Virus record (IMG/VR): IMGVR_UViG_3300050132_000111
Coordinates: 1-45,298 of that record
Direction: 5' to 3' (one strand)
DNA: 45,298 bases
Source: a virus
The translations under genes were made by a program, and so were the position numbers. This document shows, one piece after another, positions 6,150 to 23,014 of the stretch; within the stretch, counting starts at the first letter, position 1, and each line of letters begins with the position of its first letter. The notes below the pieces were generated by a model. That model did no database searches. It saw nothing but the letters and a program-made list of their open reading frames with translations, and had not been told where the DNA came from.

Positions 6150-6847
6150 CAGCCCAATCCCCCATTCATGCCGGCGCTCTGTGATGGCGTCGGGGTCTGA
6201 GGCTGCACTGTCCCACTATCCACTTGCGCCGCACCTGATGGCACCGCCGTGTTCGTGTATGTCGCCGTGCCAGTGACGCGGATTTCCTCAACCCAGATGT
6301 CAACCGCCATCATCGAAACGCCATTGCGGGCGGTGCGCTTGAAATCATGATGCGTAATGTTGCACGATGGGTAAACGTATTCTGGCATATAGAGATCGAA
6401 AAGCGTGGTGCTTTTCTGCGCCGCCAGAACCGAGGATAGAAATGCCGATCGTTGGGCCTCGTTTCCGCTGATCATGTATGTCACGCGACCCGAGAATGGC
6501 GTGCTGACTTTGTTGTAGGACAGAAACGCGCCAGCCTCTTGCGGAGCCGTCGAGATACGATGATCAAGGCGGAATTCCAGATCTGCAACCGATTGGCTTG
6601 TGCCATTCAAAGCGGAGAGAACTTGCGCGATGATGCCGGATGCCGCCGCCGCCGCAAATGCGGGTTGGCCTGCCTGCGTGAAAATCCCCCACTGAGGGGT
6701 CTTGAACATGTTGATGATTTCGATTGCATCGGACACCAGCAATACGACCGTGTTCTGGATCGTATCGACAGTGCGCAAAAGCGTCGGAACGCCTGGCGCG
6801 CTGGGAACGTTTGGGTATGTCGGCTTGGACGTGTTGGGGATCGCCAT
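6149..6847 (-). CDS. Tail/baseplate protein of unknown function
   Basis: 232 residues. There is no clear family. The first half is helical (VDTIQNTVVLLVSDAIEIINMF). A central region reads FSGRVTYMISGNEAQRSAFL and the end is a Pro/Gln/Thr-rich tail. It starts one base after the tape measure stop and overlaps the plug start, so it belongs to the tail module. Position suggests a tail-tip or hub-proximal component. It could also be a peptidoglycan-anchoring adaptor, but no LysM or catalytic motif is evident. Confidence 0.6.
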   Translation of the reverse strand: MAIPNTSKPTYPNVPSAPGVPTLLRTVDTIQNTVVLLVSDAIEIINMFKTPQWGIFTQAGQPAFAAAAASGIIAQVLSALNGTSQSVADLEFRLDHRISTAPQEAGAFLSYNKVSTPFSGRVTYMISGNEAQRSAFLSSVLAAQKSTTLFDLYMPEYVYPSCNITHHDFKRTARNGVSMMAVDIWVEEIRVTGTATYTNTAVPSGAAQVDSGTVQPQTPTPSQSAGMNGGLG

Positions 6848-6848
6848 T

Positions 6849-8639
6849 TTATTGTGGTCCCCGGTTGGCCTGCGTCACCAAAGACCTCGAAAAATCCTTC
6901 GCAATCCCTGGCGCATCTGTCGCCTGCGTTTGCACGATGACGGTGCCGATCGTGTAGCTCGTGGGGGATGACAGTTGCGTGTTGGCGAAGTTGCCTGAGC
7001 CGGGGCGGAGGTTTAGGGCGGGATCGGGTTGCGCCAATGGGTTATAGAAGGGATGCTTCTTCATTTGGCCAGGCAACCCGCCTGACGGAATAGACAACGG
7101 CGGATGAGACGATTTTGGATTGTATTGACTGCCACCCGGAAGCGACGGCCACCGACCCTTCAAAGCCCCCGCAATCTCGTCATCGTGACCGCCAGACGTG
7201 AGATCCGTTTGCAAATCCCGTCCAGTTTTCTTGCGGTAATCATCTTCCGCCAGATACCAAGCCCCACGATCCTGACTGGTGGGAGAAAAATCCGTCAGTC
7301 CGTGTGCGCGCGCAACCTCGCGCCAAGTGTCGCTTGTGAACTGATACCGACCCGATGCGGTTGATGTTCCGCCAGCTCCAACACCTTCGGGGAACTTGGA
7401 GAAATCCGTGAAGTGCGAGCCGCCATTTTTGAGAGTGTAATCCCCATTGGATTCAGGTTCAGATAGAGCTTTTAAAAAGGTTTTCTGCGGATCGGACATA
7501 GATGAATCTGCAATTGCAGTATCTCCACCACCCCCGAGCCATGACGGCATGTTGTGGGACCACCAGGTTTCAACCGGCCCGGTGCCACGATCACGAAGGA
7601 ATTTGTCGTTCATCTGTTTGCTGAATTTAGGGTCTTCTCCGCCAGCGGGACCAGTCAAAAGGAGCGGAGACAGCGCAATAGACAACCGTGTGACCAACAA
7701 AAGAAGGCCGTCCAGAACGTCAACCAATGATGTCAGGCCCATCAGTTTCGCGCTAAGTCGAACCCCGCCCAACACGGTAAGGGCAGTTGTTATAGCCATT
7801 ACGCCTTCTGCGATGTCTGGGTTGTTCTGGATCAAGGTCGTCATTTTTTCAGTAACGTCGGTCAACGAAGGGGACAAGTCCGTCAGCAGATGCCGACCCG
7901 CCGTCTTGGCATTTTCTCCGAGTTTGTGAAATGCCTTTGAAAGCGCCAAGGCCGCGTCAACGTCCTTCTGATCCGGGACGCCATTCTTCAAAGATTCCGC
8001 CAACTCTTTATTGAGATTGGCTACGGTCTTGATCCGCAACATGGCGTTCAACGTGTCAGGATCGATGATACCCCCAAGGGCATCATTGACAGCCACGATA
8101 CTCTGAACGCCGTCCTTCGTGTCCTTATATTTTTCGATATAAGCCTGAAACAGCTTGATGGCTTCAAGGGGGGATGTGTTCCCGTTCCCGTTGATAAGCC
8201 CCATGTTGATGCCAAATTGCGGGTCCATACCGGCATTAAACTTAGCCCGCGATTCCGCAAACTTTTGCAGCGTCCCCCGCGCAGCTTCGGCATTTCCGCC
8301 CATGCGGTCCATAGCCTGCGCGAATGCCTCAATCGCTGGGACACTCTCACCAATCCGAACGGCCTGCTGTGCGATGTGCATCAAAGAATTGGTCGTGTCT
8401 TTGGCAAATGCGGCAATTCCCGCACTTCCAACCAACACGCCAATTAACGCCAAGGCTTCATTGCGGATGGCGCTAAAAAATTCACCCGCCTTAGCCCCGC
8501 TGGCCTGCATTTCTTTTGCAGTAACTACAGCCTCGTCGCGAGTTTTCTTTAGGGCAACGCTTGTATCTTGCTGCCCTTTCTTGAAACCTGAAGCGTCAAT
8601 TTCGAGCGTGACTACAAGAGCATCAACAACAGTCGCCAT
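6849..8639 (-). CDS. Tail tape measure protein with embedded lambda-R-like transglycosylase
   Basis: 596 residues from the ATG at 8639, preceded by GGGAGGA six bases upstream. Residues 1-110 (IDASGFKKGQQDTSVALKKT) are the start typical of short tape measures. Hydrophobic helices follow around residues 60-80 and 300-345. About residues 395-510 match the phage lambda R endolysin fold: a Glu-containing SEPESNGDYT, GRYQFTSDTWREVARAHGL, DFSPTSQDRGAW and WPSLPGG. This would locally open peptidoglycan during DNA injection. The gene follows the frameshifting chaperone, the usual place for a tape measure. Its length implies a tail of moderate length. Confidence 0.85.
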   Translation of the reverse strand: MATVVDALVVTLEIDASGFKKGQQDTSVALKKTRDEAVVTAKEMQASGAKAGEFFSAIRNEALALIGVLVGSAGIAAFAKDTTNSLMHIAQQAVRIGESVPAIEAFAQAMDRMGGNAEAARGTLQKFAESRAKFNAGMDPQFGINMGLINGNGNTSPLEAIKLFQAYIEKYKDTKDGVQSIVAVNDALGGIIDPDTLNAMLRIKTVANLNKELAESLKNGVPDQKDVDAALALSKAFHKLGENAKTAGRHLLTDLSPSLTDVTEKMTTLIQNNPDIAEGVMAITTALTVLGGVRLSAKLMGLTSLVDVLDGLLLLVTRLSIALSPLLLTGPAGGEDPKFSKQMNDKFLRDRGTGPVETWWSHNMPSWLGGGGDTAIADSSMSDPQKTFLKALSEPESNGDYTLKNGGSHFTDFSKFPEGVGAGGTSTASGRYQFTSDTWREVARAHGLTDFSPTSQDRGAWYLAEDDYRKKTGRDLQTDLTSGGHDDEIAGALKGRWPSLPGGSQYNPKSSHPPLSIPSGGLPGQMKKHPFYNPLAQPDPALNLRPGSGNFANTQLSSPTSYTIGTVIVQTQATDAPGIAKDFSRSLVTQANRGPQ

Positions 8640-18856: not shown

Positions 18857-20617
18857 TCAATCAAAGCCTTCAACTATAGAACGAGCCACGCATCGGCAGT
18901 TTTTTGCCTGGACAAACGCACTTCCGACGCTGTAATATCCTGGTTCAGTTTCCATGGTGAAAACATGTCCAGAAAAATCCCTGACGCTCTTGTCCTCGAC
19001 GCCGCGAAATTCGTAGAGGCCGGCGCCAAACTTAAAGACGCTGCTGCCCGCATCGGATGCAATCCGGACGAACTCAGCAAAAAGCTCCGGGCCATTGGCG
19101 TTAAGACTGAAGGCCGGGTCGATTGGAACGCAAAGGCCGAAGAAATCATTTCCCTCTACAACGGGGGGATGGGCACGACTGCCATTGCTGAAATCCTCGG
19201 GTTGCCGCGCCATGCAGCCAGCAATGTCCGAGATGTCTTGATACGGAACAATGCTATGAGAAGTCGAAGCGATGCATGCTTCACCCGCGCCGCCAACCAA
19301 ACTCCGGCTGAACGCCGCGCCCTCGTCCATGCCGCTAGAGCAACCCGTCGCGCCAACATGATTGCGCACGCGGCTACCGGAGACATCAAGCATGGCATCG
19401 GATTTGGTGAATCCGAAGTTGGTGACATTCTCATTTCTGGCGGCATTGATATCATCAGGCAGAAGGTCGTTGACGATAACTACCTCATCGACATCGCCGC
19501 CGGGCACATCGCCATAGAAGTTAAAACGTCTTCCACTCAAGCGCACATATCCGTGAACAATAGACAAAGATTCGAAAAGCTCTCCGAATGTGGTTACGGG
19601 CTTGTTTTTGTCGTCGTCAACGACATCGCCTCTTTGATGAACCATGCAAACGACTTGGTCTCCGCAATCAACCGTTCCCAAAGGAACCCACCCACGCGAG
19701 GTCAATATTGGGTGATTAAATGTTCCATTGAGCAGATCGGAGCCTACACGGATGTTGACCATTTTTCCATCGAACGGCGTTTTCCAAAGCTTCCTAACGC
19801 CGTTTGATGTGTCAACGATAGTGTCGCCTGGAAAGCAGTGGACAAGCTGTCCTGGCCAGATGAACTTTCCCTCATCTGGGTCATACCAACCCTTTTCAAC
19901 ATCGTAGACAGTCTTTTCTCTGCCTGCTTTTAGATGCGATGGTCTTGGATGGTGGCCGCCGCCCGAATGCACCCAAATCGCGGTTCGAATTCCGAGTTCC
20001 GTCTGGCGGACCTTCGTGATCGTCGCCGTCGCCAGAGCATTTTGACTACGTGCAATCAACTCTGCACGTCGCCGCGTCACCCCGTATTGCGCCTCAATCT
20101 CATCCGTCATTGTCGCCAGATCGCCACCAAGCTGTATCGATCGCATTGCGATACCCTGCACCTGCGTCAAATACTGCGCCGGGATCGACTTGATCAGTTC
20201 GATATTCGCACCAATCGAAGCCTGCAACGCATCATTCACACCAGGCGTCATCTTGAACTTGACCGTCCATCCGGCCTTTTTCATCGCGGCCTGCATCGCG
20301 CCATCCGTGCGGGCCTGCACCGACTTTGCAAAGTGGCGTCCTAGCTCCTCGGCCATCGTGTCAAAGTTGGCCTGCCACTGCGCACCAAGACCATGGAACT
20401 CATCACGCATACCGCCAGCGGGGCTAACGTCCTGCGCCAGAACCGGGGTGTTACGCCGCCATTGTGCCGTGACCCAATAGATCACGCTGCGGTGCATTTT
20501 TTCGATCTGGGCGTCGAGCTTCTTGCGATACGAGGCGGTCAGGCCGGCGTTGGGGTGAATTGGCGCGAGGATTTTGCGTTTGCCATCATTCGACACCAAA
20601 CGTTGTTTTGGTGCCAT
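18857..20617 (-). CDS. MuF-type head morphogenesis protein containing an intein
   Basis: 586 residues from the ATG at 20617 (GAGG nine bases upstream; a GTG at 20632 is possible). Extein residues 1-260 carry the MuF pattern: GVTRRRAELIARSQNALATA, VRQTELGIRTAIWVHSGGGH, RPSHLKAGR and FIWPGQLVH. The sequence then enters a Hint-type intein at Cys (codon 19835-19837) and resumes CRCVARSIVEGFD (18898-18857), the normal MuF close. Splicing would give a 273-residue protein that helps portal-linked assembly. A plus-strand gene lies inside the intein. Confidence 0.88.
   Translation of the reverse strand: MAPKQRLVSNDGKRKILAPIHPNAGLTASYRKKLDAQIEKMHRSVIYWVTAQWRRNTPVLAQDVSPAGGMRDEFHGLGAQWQANFDTMAEELGRHFAKSVQARTDGAMQAAMKKAGWTVKFKMTPGVNDALQASIGANIELIKSIPAQYLTQVQGIAMRSIQLGGDLATMTDEIEAQYGVTRRRAELIARSQNALATATITKVRQTELGIRTAIWVHSGGGHHPRPSHLKAGREKTVYDVEKGWYDPDEGKFIWPGQLVHCFPGDTIVDTSNGVRKLWKTPFDGKMVNIRVGSDLLNGTFNHPILTSRGWVPLGTVDCGDQVVCMVHQRGDVVDDDKNKPVTTFGELFESLSIVHGYVRLSGRRFNFYGDVPGGDVDEVVIVNDLLPDDINAARNENVTNFGFTKSDAMLDVSGSRVRNHVGATGCSSGMDEGAAFSRSLVGGAGEACIASTSHSIVPYQDISDIAGCMARQPEDFSNGSRAHPPVVEGNDFFGLCVPIDPAFSLNANGPELFAEFVRIASDAGSSVFKFGAGLYEFRGVEDKSVRDFSGHVFTMETEPGYYSVGSAFVQAKNCRCVARSIVEGFD
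18910..18939 (+). promoter_or_regulatory. Candidate promoter for the antisense nuclease
   Basis: TGGACA, an 18-base spacer and TAATAT lie on the plus strand inside the intein 3' coding end. The expected transcription start would be about 20 bases before the nuclease ATG. A weak GGTGA precedes that ATG. Sequence match only. Confidence 0.35.
18965..19807 (+). CDS. Putative homing endonuclease, Vsr/DUF559-like, encoded antisense within the intein
   Basis: 280 residues from the ATG at 18965; the frame stays open upstream to 18821, but that start would leave the intein. Residues 7-46 (LKDAAARIGCNPDELSKKLR) and 56-100 (GGMGTTAIAEILGLPRHAAS) look like two helix-turn-helix units. Residues 145-220 read like a PD-(D/E)XK nuclease of Vsr/DUF559 type: GIDIIRQKVVDDNYLIDIAA, then HIAIEVKTSS (candidate catalytic D176, E185, K187), then NNRQRFEKLSECGYGLVFVV. 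The gene lies wholly inside the intein DNA on the other strand, codon-aligned. Homing function is inferred. Confidence 0.75.
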   Translation: MSRKIPDALVLDAAKFVEAGAKLKDAAARIGCNPDELSKKLRAIGVKTEGRVDWNAKAEEIISLYNGGMGTTAIAEILGLPRHAASNVRDVLIRNNAMRSRSDACFTRAANQTPAERRALVHAARATRRANMIAHAATGDIKHGIGFGESEVGDILISGGIDIIRQKVVDDNYLIDIAAGHIAIEVKTSSTQAHISVNNRQRFEKLSECGYGLVFVVVNDIASLMNHANDLVSAINRSQRNPPTRGQYWVIKCSIEQIGAYTDVDHFSIERRFPKLPNAV

Positions 20618-20683
20618 TACGCTAGACCTCACGCATTTTTGCGGATATGAAAGCGATAACGAAAACCAAAACCGGAGGTTGTT

Positions 20684-21070: not shown

Positions 21071-23014
21071 CTAAAACGTGTCGCGCTCAGTGATTGGGTT
21101 ATAATAATCCCCTTCGCCTTGATGGATAGCTTCAAGAAAATCTTCCACGTCACCACGCTCTAGCATGGCAACGTTGTCATCTTCTTTGGTGGTTCGTTCT
21201 ATGAATACAGGATGATTCCCAGACTTGACCGCCGCTGCCAAGCTGTGGTGACCATCAAGAATAGCGCGCATTTTTCTACCATCAGCCTCAAATTCAGGGC
21301 TAACAGCAACCTCAAAGTCTGCATTTGCAATCTTTTTATCAACAATGTCATCGTCAATGTAATGCTGACTTGTGGTCAATTCGGCGCCCCCGAGGGTTCC
21401 GGAATTTCGGCTAAATCCCGATCCGTCCCCAAATTGACCATTTTCATCACGCGGATGATCCGCCTCATTAAACGGGTCCGCATCCGTCGCATTCGCGCCA
21501 GTCTCCGAACCCTCTTCCCCCTGCGTATCGATCCTCTCGGATGGGTCAGTCAAATCCGGCTCACCGCCGCCATCAGGCAGCCCAGGCGCCTCACCCTCCA
21601 ATCCCGCGTATGGATTGCCATCCTCGCCAGCAAGCCGCGTGCGCTCATCCTCGGGAGCGAGCACGCCGCTTTCGATATAGACCGCCGCCGTGTCCGCGCG
21701 CGTTTTGTAGACCGCAGCGTTGCCGGCTTCGTCCAACTGCCAAAGCGGCACGAACTCGTGCGTGATGTCGTGGTCGATGAAACCCCATCGATTGAGTTGG
21801 ATCACATCCAATGCAAATTTCAGCGGGTCATCGATCACACGCTCTTGCCGGGCGTGCATAGAATCGTAGAAGCATCTGATCTCGCCATCGGACGACGCAT
21901 TAAGCCCAGACGGTGTAATGCCAAACGCCTTGACCAATGGAACCGATGTAACCGAGGACTGATGCTCTTGGCTCTGCGCCTGTAAATGATCCAACGTGCC
22001 AAGCGGTGCCGAGATATTCCCGAAATGCTCGGTCTCTTTGTCTGTCATGAAGACGCCAAGATTGTCCCGCATACCAGCGAGAACCGAGGCGCGATTGTCC
22101 ATATCGTCAGAGCCACCTTGCAAGAAGGCTTGCATGTTGGTTTCGAGATTGAACACCGTGAAGGCGTTGATCAAATCTCCAACAGACTGGCGCGTGCGGA
22201 GCCAGTTATCTACGGTCGGCTTCAACATCTGCGACAGCGAGATGCCGCCGAAATTATAAGCTGGCTTCAAGATATCCGGCACCGGGCGAGACACAATCGT
22301 CATCAACCGAGTGGCATTGATCCGGGTTCCCATGTGGAACCATTCTTCGGGCTTGTAGAAATTCTTATCGCGCGGGTTGGTCGTGTTGTAGCGGTTCGGC
22401 GCAATCCATGATGGATCGATCACGCGAAAGCCGGTCAAGCTGCCCTTGCGGATCTTCGCCTTGTCGAGCAGCAACGGCGACAGCAACTCGTTTGGATCTT
22501 CAACGCCGAAATCGGGGTAGATCTGCGAAATACCCATGTAGCCATCAAGCTCAAGGGCATTCCGAAACGCACTACGCACGCGGAACTCTTTAAGGTCAGC
22601 CTTGATCTGCGTGATTTTAGCGGTCTTGTCGGCTTTGCCAATCGCCTTCAGCGTGATCCACTTGCGCGTCATTTCTTCCGCGATGACTTCGGACGGACGG
22701 CGATATTCGGATCGTTGCGTCAACTCAGCCAGATACGGGTATCCCATGAAGGATACGCCCTCAGACCACGCGCCCATCATACGGCCGGCATAGCTGAAAT
22801 TCTGCGCGATCTGCTCGGACTGCGCTTCATCCATCGCCAGCCGATCGCCAGATGGCAACACGCCAGGCGCATATGTTGGCATTTGAAACGACGTGCCGGT
22901 TGGCGCTGCCTTCTTGCCGTGCTTCATCAGCGCGGCGTGCGATATTCTCAACTTGGGCGGCTCTACGCGCTCAATCTGTGGCGGGCCTTTCCACCAACGC
23001 GAGATCGGGTTCAT
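21071..23014 (-). CDS. Portal protein (DUF1073 type) with C-terminal ParB-like extension
   Basis: 647 residues. The portal region spans about residues 1-470: YAGRMMGAWSEGVSFMGYPY, PSEVIAEEMTRKWITLKAIG, FRNALELDGYMGISQIYPDF, RLMTIVSRPVPDILKPAYNF and FGITPSGLNASSDGEIRCFY. All are typical of DUF1073 portals. From about residue 517 a linker (EADHPRDENGQFGDGSG) leads to a 110-residue domain with LDGHHSLAAAVKSGNHPVFI, the signature of ParB/sulfiredoxin-like folds. The start overlaps the terminase stop by 4 bases. The extension is unusual and discussed separately. Confidence 0.88.
   Translation of the reverse strand: MNPISRWWKGPPQIERVEPPKLRISHAALMKHGKKAAPTGTSFQMPTYAPGVLPSGDRLAMDEAQSEQIAQNFSYAGRMMGAWSEGVSFMGYPYLAELTQRSEYRRPSEVIAEEMTRKWITLKAIGKADKTAKITQIKADLKEFRVRSAFRNALELDGYMGISQIYPDFGVEDPNELLSPLLLDKAKIRKGSLTGFRVIDPSWIAPNRYNTTNPRDKNFYKPEEWFHMGTRINATRLMTIVSRPVPDILKPAYNFGGISLSQMLKPTVDNWLRTRQSVGDLINAFTVFNLETNMQAFLQGGSDDMDNRASVLAGMRDNLGVFMTDKETEHFGNISAPLGTLDHLQAQSQEHQSSVTSVPLVKAFGITPSGLNASSDGEIRCFYDSMHARQERVIDDPLKFALDVIQLNRWGFIDHDITHEFVPLWQLDEAGNAAVYKTRADTAAVYIESGVLAPEDERTRLAGEDGNPYAGLEGEAPGLPDGGGEPDLTDPSERIDTQGEEGSETGANATDADPFNEADHPRDENGQFGDGSGFSRNSGTLGGAELTTSQHYIDDDIVDKKIANADFEVAVSPEFEADGRKMRAILDGHHSLAAAVKSGNHPVFIERTTKEDDNVAMLERGDVEDFLEAIHQGEGDYYNPITERDTF

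Follow-up and report, generated by a model that had tools for sequence, protein, structure and literature searches.

A viral intein class that is widespread in phages is very probably a two-strand mobile element, in which a splicing protein and an antisense homing endonuclease have coevolved codon against codon along almost the entire element, and in which the nuclease has its promoter, ribosome site and start codon in the reverse complement of the catalytic C-terminal splicing blocks. The example from which the analysis departs is found in a stretch of 45,298 nucleotides (IMG/VR record IMGVR_UViG_3300050132_000111), referred to here as the window. The arrangement of an intein with a nuclease gene on its opposite strand recurs in related phages and prophages, in well over 150 sequences and at least six host genes.

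The intein, the opposite-strand gene and their relatives

The original prediction placed an intein of 313 codons, with blocks A, B, F and G, a terminal Asn and a +1 Cys, in a minus-strand MuF gene, and a plus-strand gene of 280 codons at 18965 to 19807 inside the limits of that intein, codon against codon. The limits and the register of both are correct: the starting coordinates differ by 66 nucleotides (18965 minus 18899), i.e., 22 codons, and the plus-strand frame lies wholly within the intein DNA, opposite intein residues 12-291. The features of the locus are as follows.

18857 to 20632, minus strand: gene of a MuF-type phage head protein, into which the intein is inserted (phrog_324, 5.5e-58; Pfam Phage_Mu_F, 3.6e-5)
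18899 to 19837, minus strand: intein of 313 codons, Cys1 to Asn313 followed by Cys+1 (blocks A, B, F and G)
19613 to 19837, minus strand: Hint-N splicing domain with blocks A and B, intein residues 1-75 (AlphaFold2 pLDDT 88-98 at residues 1-60; sense is the conserved frame here)
18899 to 19015, minus strand: Hint-C splicing domain with blocks F and G, intein residues 275-313 (AlphaFold2 pLDDT up to 97)
19097 to 19465, minus strand: sense linker, intein residues 125-247, predicted to be disordered (AlphaFold2 pLDDT below 50 at 125-224 and 226-247)
19508 to 19519, minus strand: sense motif FYGD (FHGD in the family), reverse complement of the active-site strand IAIE (VAVE in the family), read directly from the alignments (A1, A2)
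18965 to 19807, plus strand: antisense nuclease gene, 280 codons and a TGA stop, in codon register with the intein (homologues in relatives)
18909 to 18938, plus strand: candidate nuclease promoter by consensus match, TGGACA (18909) -16- TGTAAT (18931) or -18- TAATAT (18933)
18965 to 18967, plus strand: ATG start, opposite the block-F His codon (CAT), conserved in relatives
18983 to 19093, plus strand: first helix-turn-helix (HTH) unit, nuclease residues 7-43 (AlphaFold2 helices 7-18, 23-30 and 34-43, pLDDT above 90; profile match to the double HTH of 2lvs)
19124 to 19246, plus strand: second HTH unit, nuclease residues 54-94 (AlphaFold2; Pfam HTH_23, 1.2e-4, window protein)
19397 to 19681, plus strand: nuclease core, residues 145-239, with E149, Q166, Y173, D176 and E185(-x-K187) (profile and Foldseek matches, conserved residues)
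19682 to 19804, plus strand: C-terminal tail of the nuclease, residues 240-280, opposite Hint-N (AlphaFold2 pLDDT 64, 55, 37 and 38 in the final four blocks)

Two HTH units and a Vsr- or DUF559-like core had been predicted for the plus-strand product, and both are backed by family profile matches and by the AlphaFold2 model. This model (mean pLDDT 84.9) comprises the two HTH units, a long helix (residues 114-138) and a PD-(D/E)XK-like core (residues 149-239), followed by a tail of low confidence beyond about residue 240, with pLDDT below 50, i.e., disordered, from residue 255. The middle of the intein has a pLDDT below 50. Scans of the window protein alone against Pfam, PHROG and NCBIfam revealed no nuclease domain and gave weak HTH matches only, so that a family profile was needed. 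The proposed profile search against Vsr and DUF559 proteins links the family to 3hrl, a DUF559-like protein (1.2e-4), and to 3r3p, the catalytic domain of I-Bth0305I (3.9e-4), both in the PDB; among 72 relatives, Pfam MTES_1575 is matched by 15, DUF559 by 7 and HTH_7 by 27. The best PDB match found by Foldseek is likewise 3r3p (probability 1.00, TM 0.66 by target length), at a marginal E of 0.056.

Residue conservation was read from 70 distinct relatives which had not been selected on the nuclease motif, together with the window protein. Four residues never vary (71/71), namely E149, Q166, Y173 and D176; E185 is found in 70 of the 71. Set against the catalytic residues of the EDxHD enzymes, E149 and D176 are invariant and E185, often followed by x-K, replaces His-Asp, so that the active site comes closer to the PD-(D/E)XK wording. 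A lack of homologues outside antisense contexts had been named as grounds for abandoning the prediction, yet the nuclease domain has such homologues, namely I-Bth0305I, DUF559 proteins and stand-alone core homologues of about 130 amino acids. Among 396 genomes sampled from the bacterial family to which the Rhizobium locus L148 belongs, 28 others gave a match, and most of these 28 have such stand-alone homologues outside inteins. Full-length copies comprising two HTH units and the core were found only antisense to inteins, and plasmid records gave no match.

In a tblastn search, the plus-strand product matched 31 phage records, including phages of Edwardsiella, Aggregatibacter, Vibrio, Salmonella and Mycobacterium as well as virus Rctr197k, and in all nine loci inspected the nuclease gene faces an intein-bearing gene on the other strand, its frame staying open for about 240-300 codons after a conserved start. 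The window protein alone, used as a query, had no match in viral contigs. A degenerate DNA motif derived from the active-site strands was used to find loci in at least 120 viral contigs and 18 genome contigs; among the matches listed, every motif-found locus with a profile match (147/147) has an opposite ORF which covers it fully, in register, and matches the intein profile. Since selection on the nuclease was to be avoided, a second search was seeded with intein blocks B and F, and all 80 loci that it found carry an antisense nuclease (78 complete, 2 cut by contig ends). Stop codons in the plus frame of relatives with the same intein, which the original prediction held to be damaging, occur in only one of the relatives found, L022. 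At this locus (6674-7312), the intein is shortened to 213 codons, its sense frame is open and the antisense nuclease is split by a stop, which makes the element a candidate decay intermediate.

A single host ORF of 1335 codons (L012, 149-4006) appears to hold two intein/nuclease units, each with its own antisense nuclease, and in the chromosome of Paenibacillus sp. P25 the element is present twice (L131 and L139), in copies that are apparently identical and probably belong to two related prophages. Most of the inspected records have no annotation of the antisense ORF; in the record of phage Snoke the intein is annotated and the antisense gene is not, and in that of phage PK1 the antisense gene is a 'hypothetical protein'.

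The host genes encode MuF (interrupted at several sites), minor capsid protein 2, dCMP deaminase, the head maturation protease, the large terminase and a DNA polymerase with a UDG domain. In virus Rctr197k (L008, 547-1953), the host gene is annotated as 'head morphogenesis protein' and is a dCMP deaminase with the intein in its zinc-binding motif (PCVA|C), and at L021 (7024-10434) the ORF that holds the intein and its antisense nuclease has 1137 codons and fuses uracil-DNA glycosylase to DNA polymerase A. The PHROG family phrog_15127 ('head protein') also matches the inteins in dCMP deaminase, terminase and polymerase; part of this profile is therefore intein, and annotation can be misled by it.

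In 360 phage records, an alignment to the joined flanks of the jerseyvirus intein extends over at least 80% of the flank length; these are uninterrupted sites, although the intein is present in many related phages. In some pairs of loci, the nucleases are far more alike than the 200 flanking extein residues, e.g., L030 and L102 with identities of 0.64 and 0.30, respectively. The intein-free alleles, the several insertion sites and the six host genes suggest that the element is mobile.

The proposed homing cycle and the splicing domains

Most probably, the element is a mobile intein with the gene of its homing endonuclease placed in the linker between the two splicing half-domains, on the other strand but in exact codon register. 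The computations established that there are two genes in register and that each frame is under selection, as well as the active-site residues, the signals in relatives and the empty sites; from the sequences we infer splicing, antisense transcription, translation, target cleavage and homing. The minus strand would be translated as a MuF precursor, from which the intein would splice itself out to leave an intact head protein. The plus strand would be transcribed from a short promoter within the DNA of blocks F and G, and translation from the start opposite the block-F His would yield a free endonuclease of the PD-(D/E)XK/EDxHD type with two HTH units. In a mixed infection, this nuclease would cut those alleles of the host gene that lack the intein, at the insertion site or close to it, and the whole unit, intein and nuclease jointly, would be copied in during repair, by gene conversion. 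Each of the two proteins would tolerate the constraints set by the other strand: the sense linker would loosely shadow the nuclease, and the tail of the nuclease would do the same for Hint-N.

The near absence of decayed nucleases among the relatives is unusual for a classical homing cycle. Loss of the nuclease may soon be followed by loss of the element, or the nuclease may have a further use, such as the exclusion of competitors. In an alternative reading, a real and expressed nuclease would have no part in homing; it would attack the DNA of competitor phages or of the host, or bind DNA as a regulator of late genes, and would be kept because of its place opposite an essential gene. This alternative fits the two HTH units per protein and the scarcity of copies with a damaged nuclease, for which a homing cycle would predict more decay, and some phage nucleases are known to exclude co-infecting relatives (PMC7468147). 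We nevertheless regard it as unlikely: the gene lies within a self-splicing element that occupies conserved motifs in several genes unrelated to one another, it is present in some related phages and absent from others, and the best structural match of its product is a homing endonuclease, all of which homing predicts. Homing and another nuclease function are not mutually exclusive.

In the window, the MuF gene consists of an N-extein of 265 codons, the intein, which begins with CFPGDT and ends with AKN|C, and a C-extein of 13 codons (CRCVARSIVEGFD). Cys1 (block A) is present in the window intein and invariant across the intein alignment (A7), in which T39 and H42 of block B (T39, N41-H42) are also invariant and N41 is nearly so; block F contains H291-VF, and N313 of block G, followed by Cys in the window, is invariant. 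The intein profile built from this alignment matches the KlbA, RadA and BIL inteins in the PDB, and RadA/RecA inteins are the top Foldseek matches of the intein model. The sense linker had no Pfam match to a LAGLIDADG or HNH nuclease domain, either in the window or in ten representative precursors. Elsewhere in the window, the portal protein gene (21071-23014, minus strand) has a C-terminal extension of about 120 residues past the portal profile match, from near '...HPRDENGQFG'.

The penultimate His of block G is commonly, yet not strictly, conserved among inteins. The window intein has Lys-Asn in place of the usual His-Asn, and the relatives have His-Asn in many cases and Ser-Asn in others. 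Together with the disordered middle of the intein, this Lys would fit a sense element that is an inactive or cleavage-only Hint domain, with the antisense gene merely embedded in a structural gene. Such a reading has very little probability in our view, considering that Cys1, the TxNH of block B and an Asn followed by Cys, Ser or Thr at +1 recur in 84 distinct inteins, that exact intein-free alleles exist, that the insertions fall within motifs, for example the zinc site in dCMP deaminase, and that the Hint halves are predicted at pLDDT above 90.

The AlphaFold2 models suggest how two proteins can share one DNA by division: the disordered tail of the nuclease lies opposite Hint-N, and the disordered linker of the intein lies opposite the second HTH unit, the helix 114-138 and the start of the core. 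The best-conserved stretch of the intein centre, FHGD...EVEIV, corresponds by reverse complement to the YNLDF...VAVE strands of the nuclease. In this intein family, FHGD...VEIV is very probably the mirror of the nuclease active site.

Selection and expression signals in the antisense frame

With both frames in register, the wobble position of each antisense codon falls on position 1 of a sense codon, and its first position falls on sense position 3; substitutions were compared by codon position in both frames, as had been proposed. Nine close pairs, independent of one another, were compared after the search motif had been taken out, and their intein middle shows 589 differences at sense position 1 vs. 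379 at position 3 (p = 1.5e-11), and the rate of amino-acid change is 0.315 for the antisense and 0.454 for the sense protein. The N- and C-terminal splicing regions of these pairs lean the opposite way, though by position not significantly. Alignment scores give the same picture for more distant pairs: in the intein middle, the antisense score exceeds the sense score in 99.8% of 3321 pairs (mean 188 vs. 83) and, in the set found by intein blocks, in 98.9% of 2415 pairs, whereas in Hint-N the antisense frame wins in only 0.3% of pairs. The original prediction would have lost its footing with purifying selection on the minus frame only; to the contrary, purifying selection on the middle is mainly on the plus frame, and the comparisons show the antisense frame to be real. 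The sense centre was considered as the conserved part and ruled out by the pairwise scores and substitution positions.

The open stretches opposite the 84 distinct inteins have a median length of 306 codons, i.e., 97% of the intein, and contain none of the 655 antisense stops expected from the Leu/Ser codon usage of each gene's exteins; having been picked as the longest open ones, these stretches make the count an illustration and not a strict test. The frame is also open in inteins of 37-45% GC. For the window intein alone, an estimate based on how six window genes use Leu and Ser codons gives about 4 expected antisense stops, and 1 is seen, the terminator of the nuclease itself; in the window by itself, the open frame is weak evidence and not decisive.

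A plus-strand ORF that is open by chance, with a similarity that merely mirrors the conservation of the sense protein, would be helped by this low expectation, by the tendency of in-register antisense frames to stay open in GC-rich DNA and by the fact that full-length copies were found only at inteins, but it can be given almost no credence when the antisense frame is the better conserved in the middle in nearly all pairs, substitutions favour its wobble position, it is open at low GC and its product matches solved nucleases and stand-alone DUF559 genes, the sense linker looking like the shadow instead. The pairwise frame scores of both sets and the substitution positions reject it.

Candidate signals for expression of the nuclease are found opposite the C-terminal splicing blocks. 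The start position is occupied by ATG in 63 and by GTG in 5 of the 84 inteins (68/84), and GAGGTT precedes it in most. When codons were resampled synonymously with the intein protein fixed, 32.6 ATG starts were expected (63 seen), 6.2 strong Shine-Dalgarno sequences (21 seen) and 0.4 promoter-like sites scoring at least 12 (6 seen), and none of 200 replicates reached the observed promoter and Shine-Dalgarno means; the promoter-bearing loci are partly related, so that these enrichment counts overstate independence. Four loci (L034, L081, L053 and L076) have a perfect TTGACA-18-TATAAT at one common position within the last 60 bases of the intein, and GC-rich loci are mostly without a recognisable sigma-70 promoter. 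The window has a weaker promoter version at the homologous place and a poor Shine-Dalgarno sequence. The promoter TGGACA-18-TAATAT had been put at 18910; the sequence is indeed present, but it starts one base earlier, at 18909. The start, the Shine-Dalgarno sequence and, in some relatives, the promoter of the nuclease exceed the sequence needs of the intein protein, and the idea of a dual-strand element whose nuclease has its own candidate promoter draws support from the sequence.

Significance and relation to known systems

The element is among the clearest known cases in which two unrelated folds, Hint and a PD-(D/E)XK-type nuclease with HTH units, are kept on both strands in register, in many phages and several bacterial phyla. 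It accounts for inteins of this family with no nuclease in their centre, implies that gene callers miss a whole class of homing endonucleases, and offers a natural system for the study of constraint on overlapping antisense genes. Separation of the nuclease from the host protein may bring free expression, different timing and release without splicing.

Antisense homing endonucleases are known from nuclear group I introns, and a full-text literature search, in which coverage of the EDxHD family was incomplete, found no description of an antisense endonuclease gene in an intein. In the nuclear rDNA group I intron of Didymium squamulosum L2066, the I-DsqI gene is antisense, has its own antisense transcript and encodes an enzyme that cuts the intron-lacking site (PMC9548176). 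In both cases a self-splicing element holds a nuclease gene that runs opposite to the host gene; I-DsqI is a His-Cys box enzyme in an RNA splicing element of a eukaryotic rRNA gene, whereas here both strands encode protein, codon against codon. The EDxHD enzymes such as I-Bth0305I combine an extended DNA-binding region with a Vsr-like nuclease domain (PMC3943268). The nuclease described here follows the same general plan, with an N-terminal HTH DNA-binding region, but I-Bth0305I is described as a group I intron enzyme and the intein family conserves E-Q-Y-D-E(-x-K). An antisense enzyme of the I-Bth0305I/EDxHD type was not found described in the literature searched, again with incomplete EDxHD coverage.

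Large inteins such as PI-SceI carry a sense LAGLIDADG or HNH endonuclease within the excised intein polypeptide. The present family resembles them in that the endonuclease is encoded between the splicing half-domains, in a conserved host gene for which intein-free alleles exist, and differs in that the nuclease is a separate opposite-strand product and the sense linker is mostly disordered. With the DUF559/MTES_1575 nucleases it shares the core, whereas the stand-alone members of that group have no pair of HTH units and do not face an intein on the other strand. The antisense overlapping genes that have been reported from prokaryotes are mostly short or narrowly distributed, and their function is debated (PMC9927249, PMC7457138). 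The nuclease gene is likewise a protein gene fully embedded antisense to another, but unlike most of these genes it overlaps its partner over about 240-340 codons, occurs in phages of several host bacterial phyla and encodes an identifiable enzyme fold.
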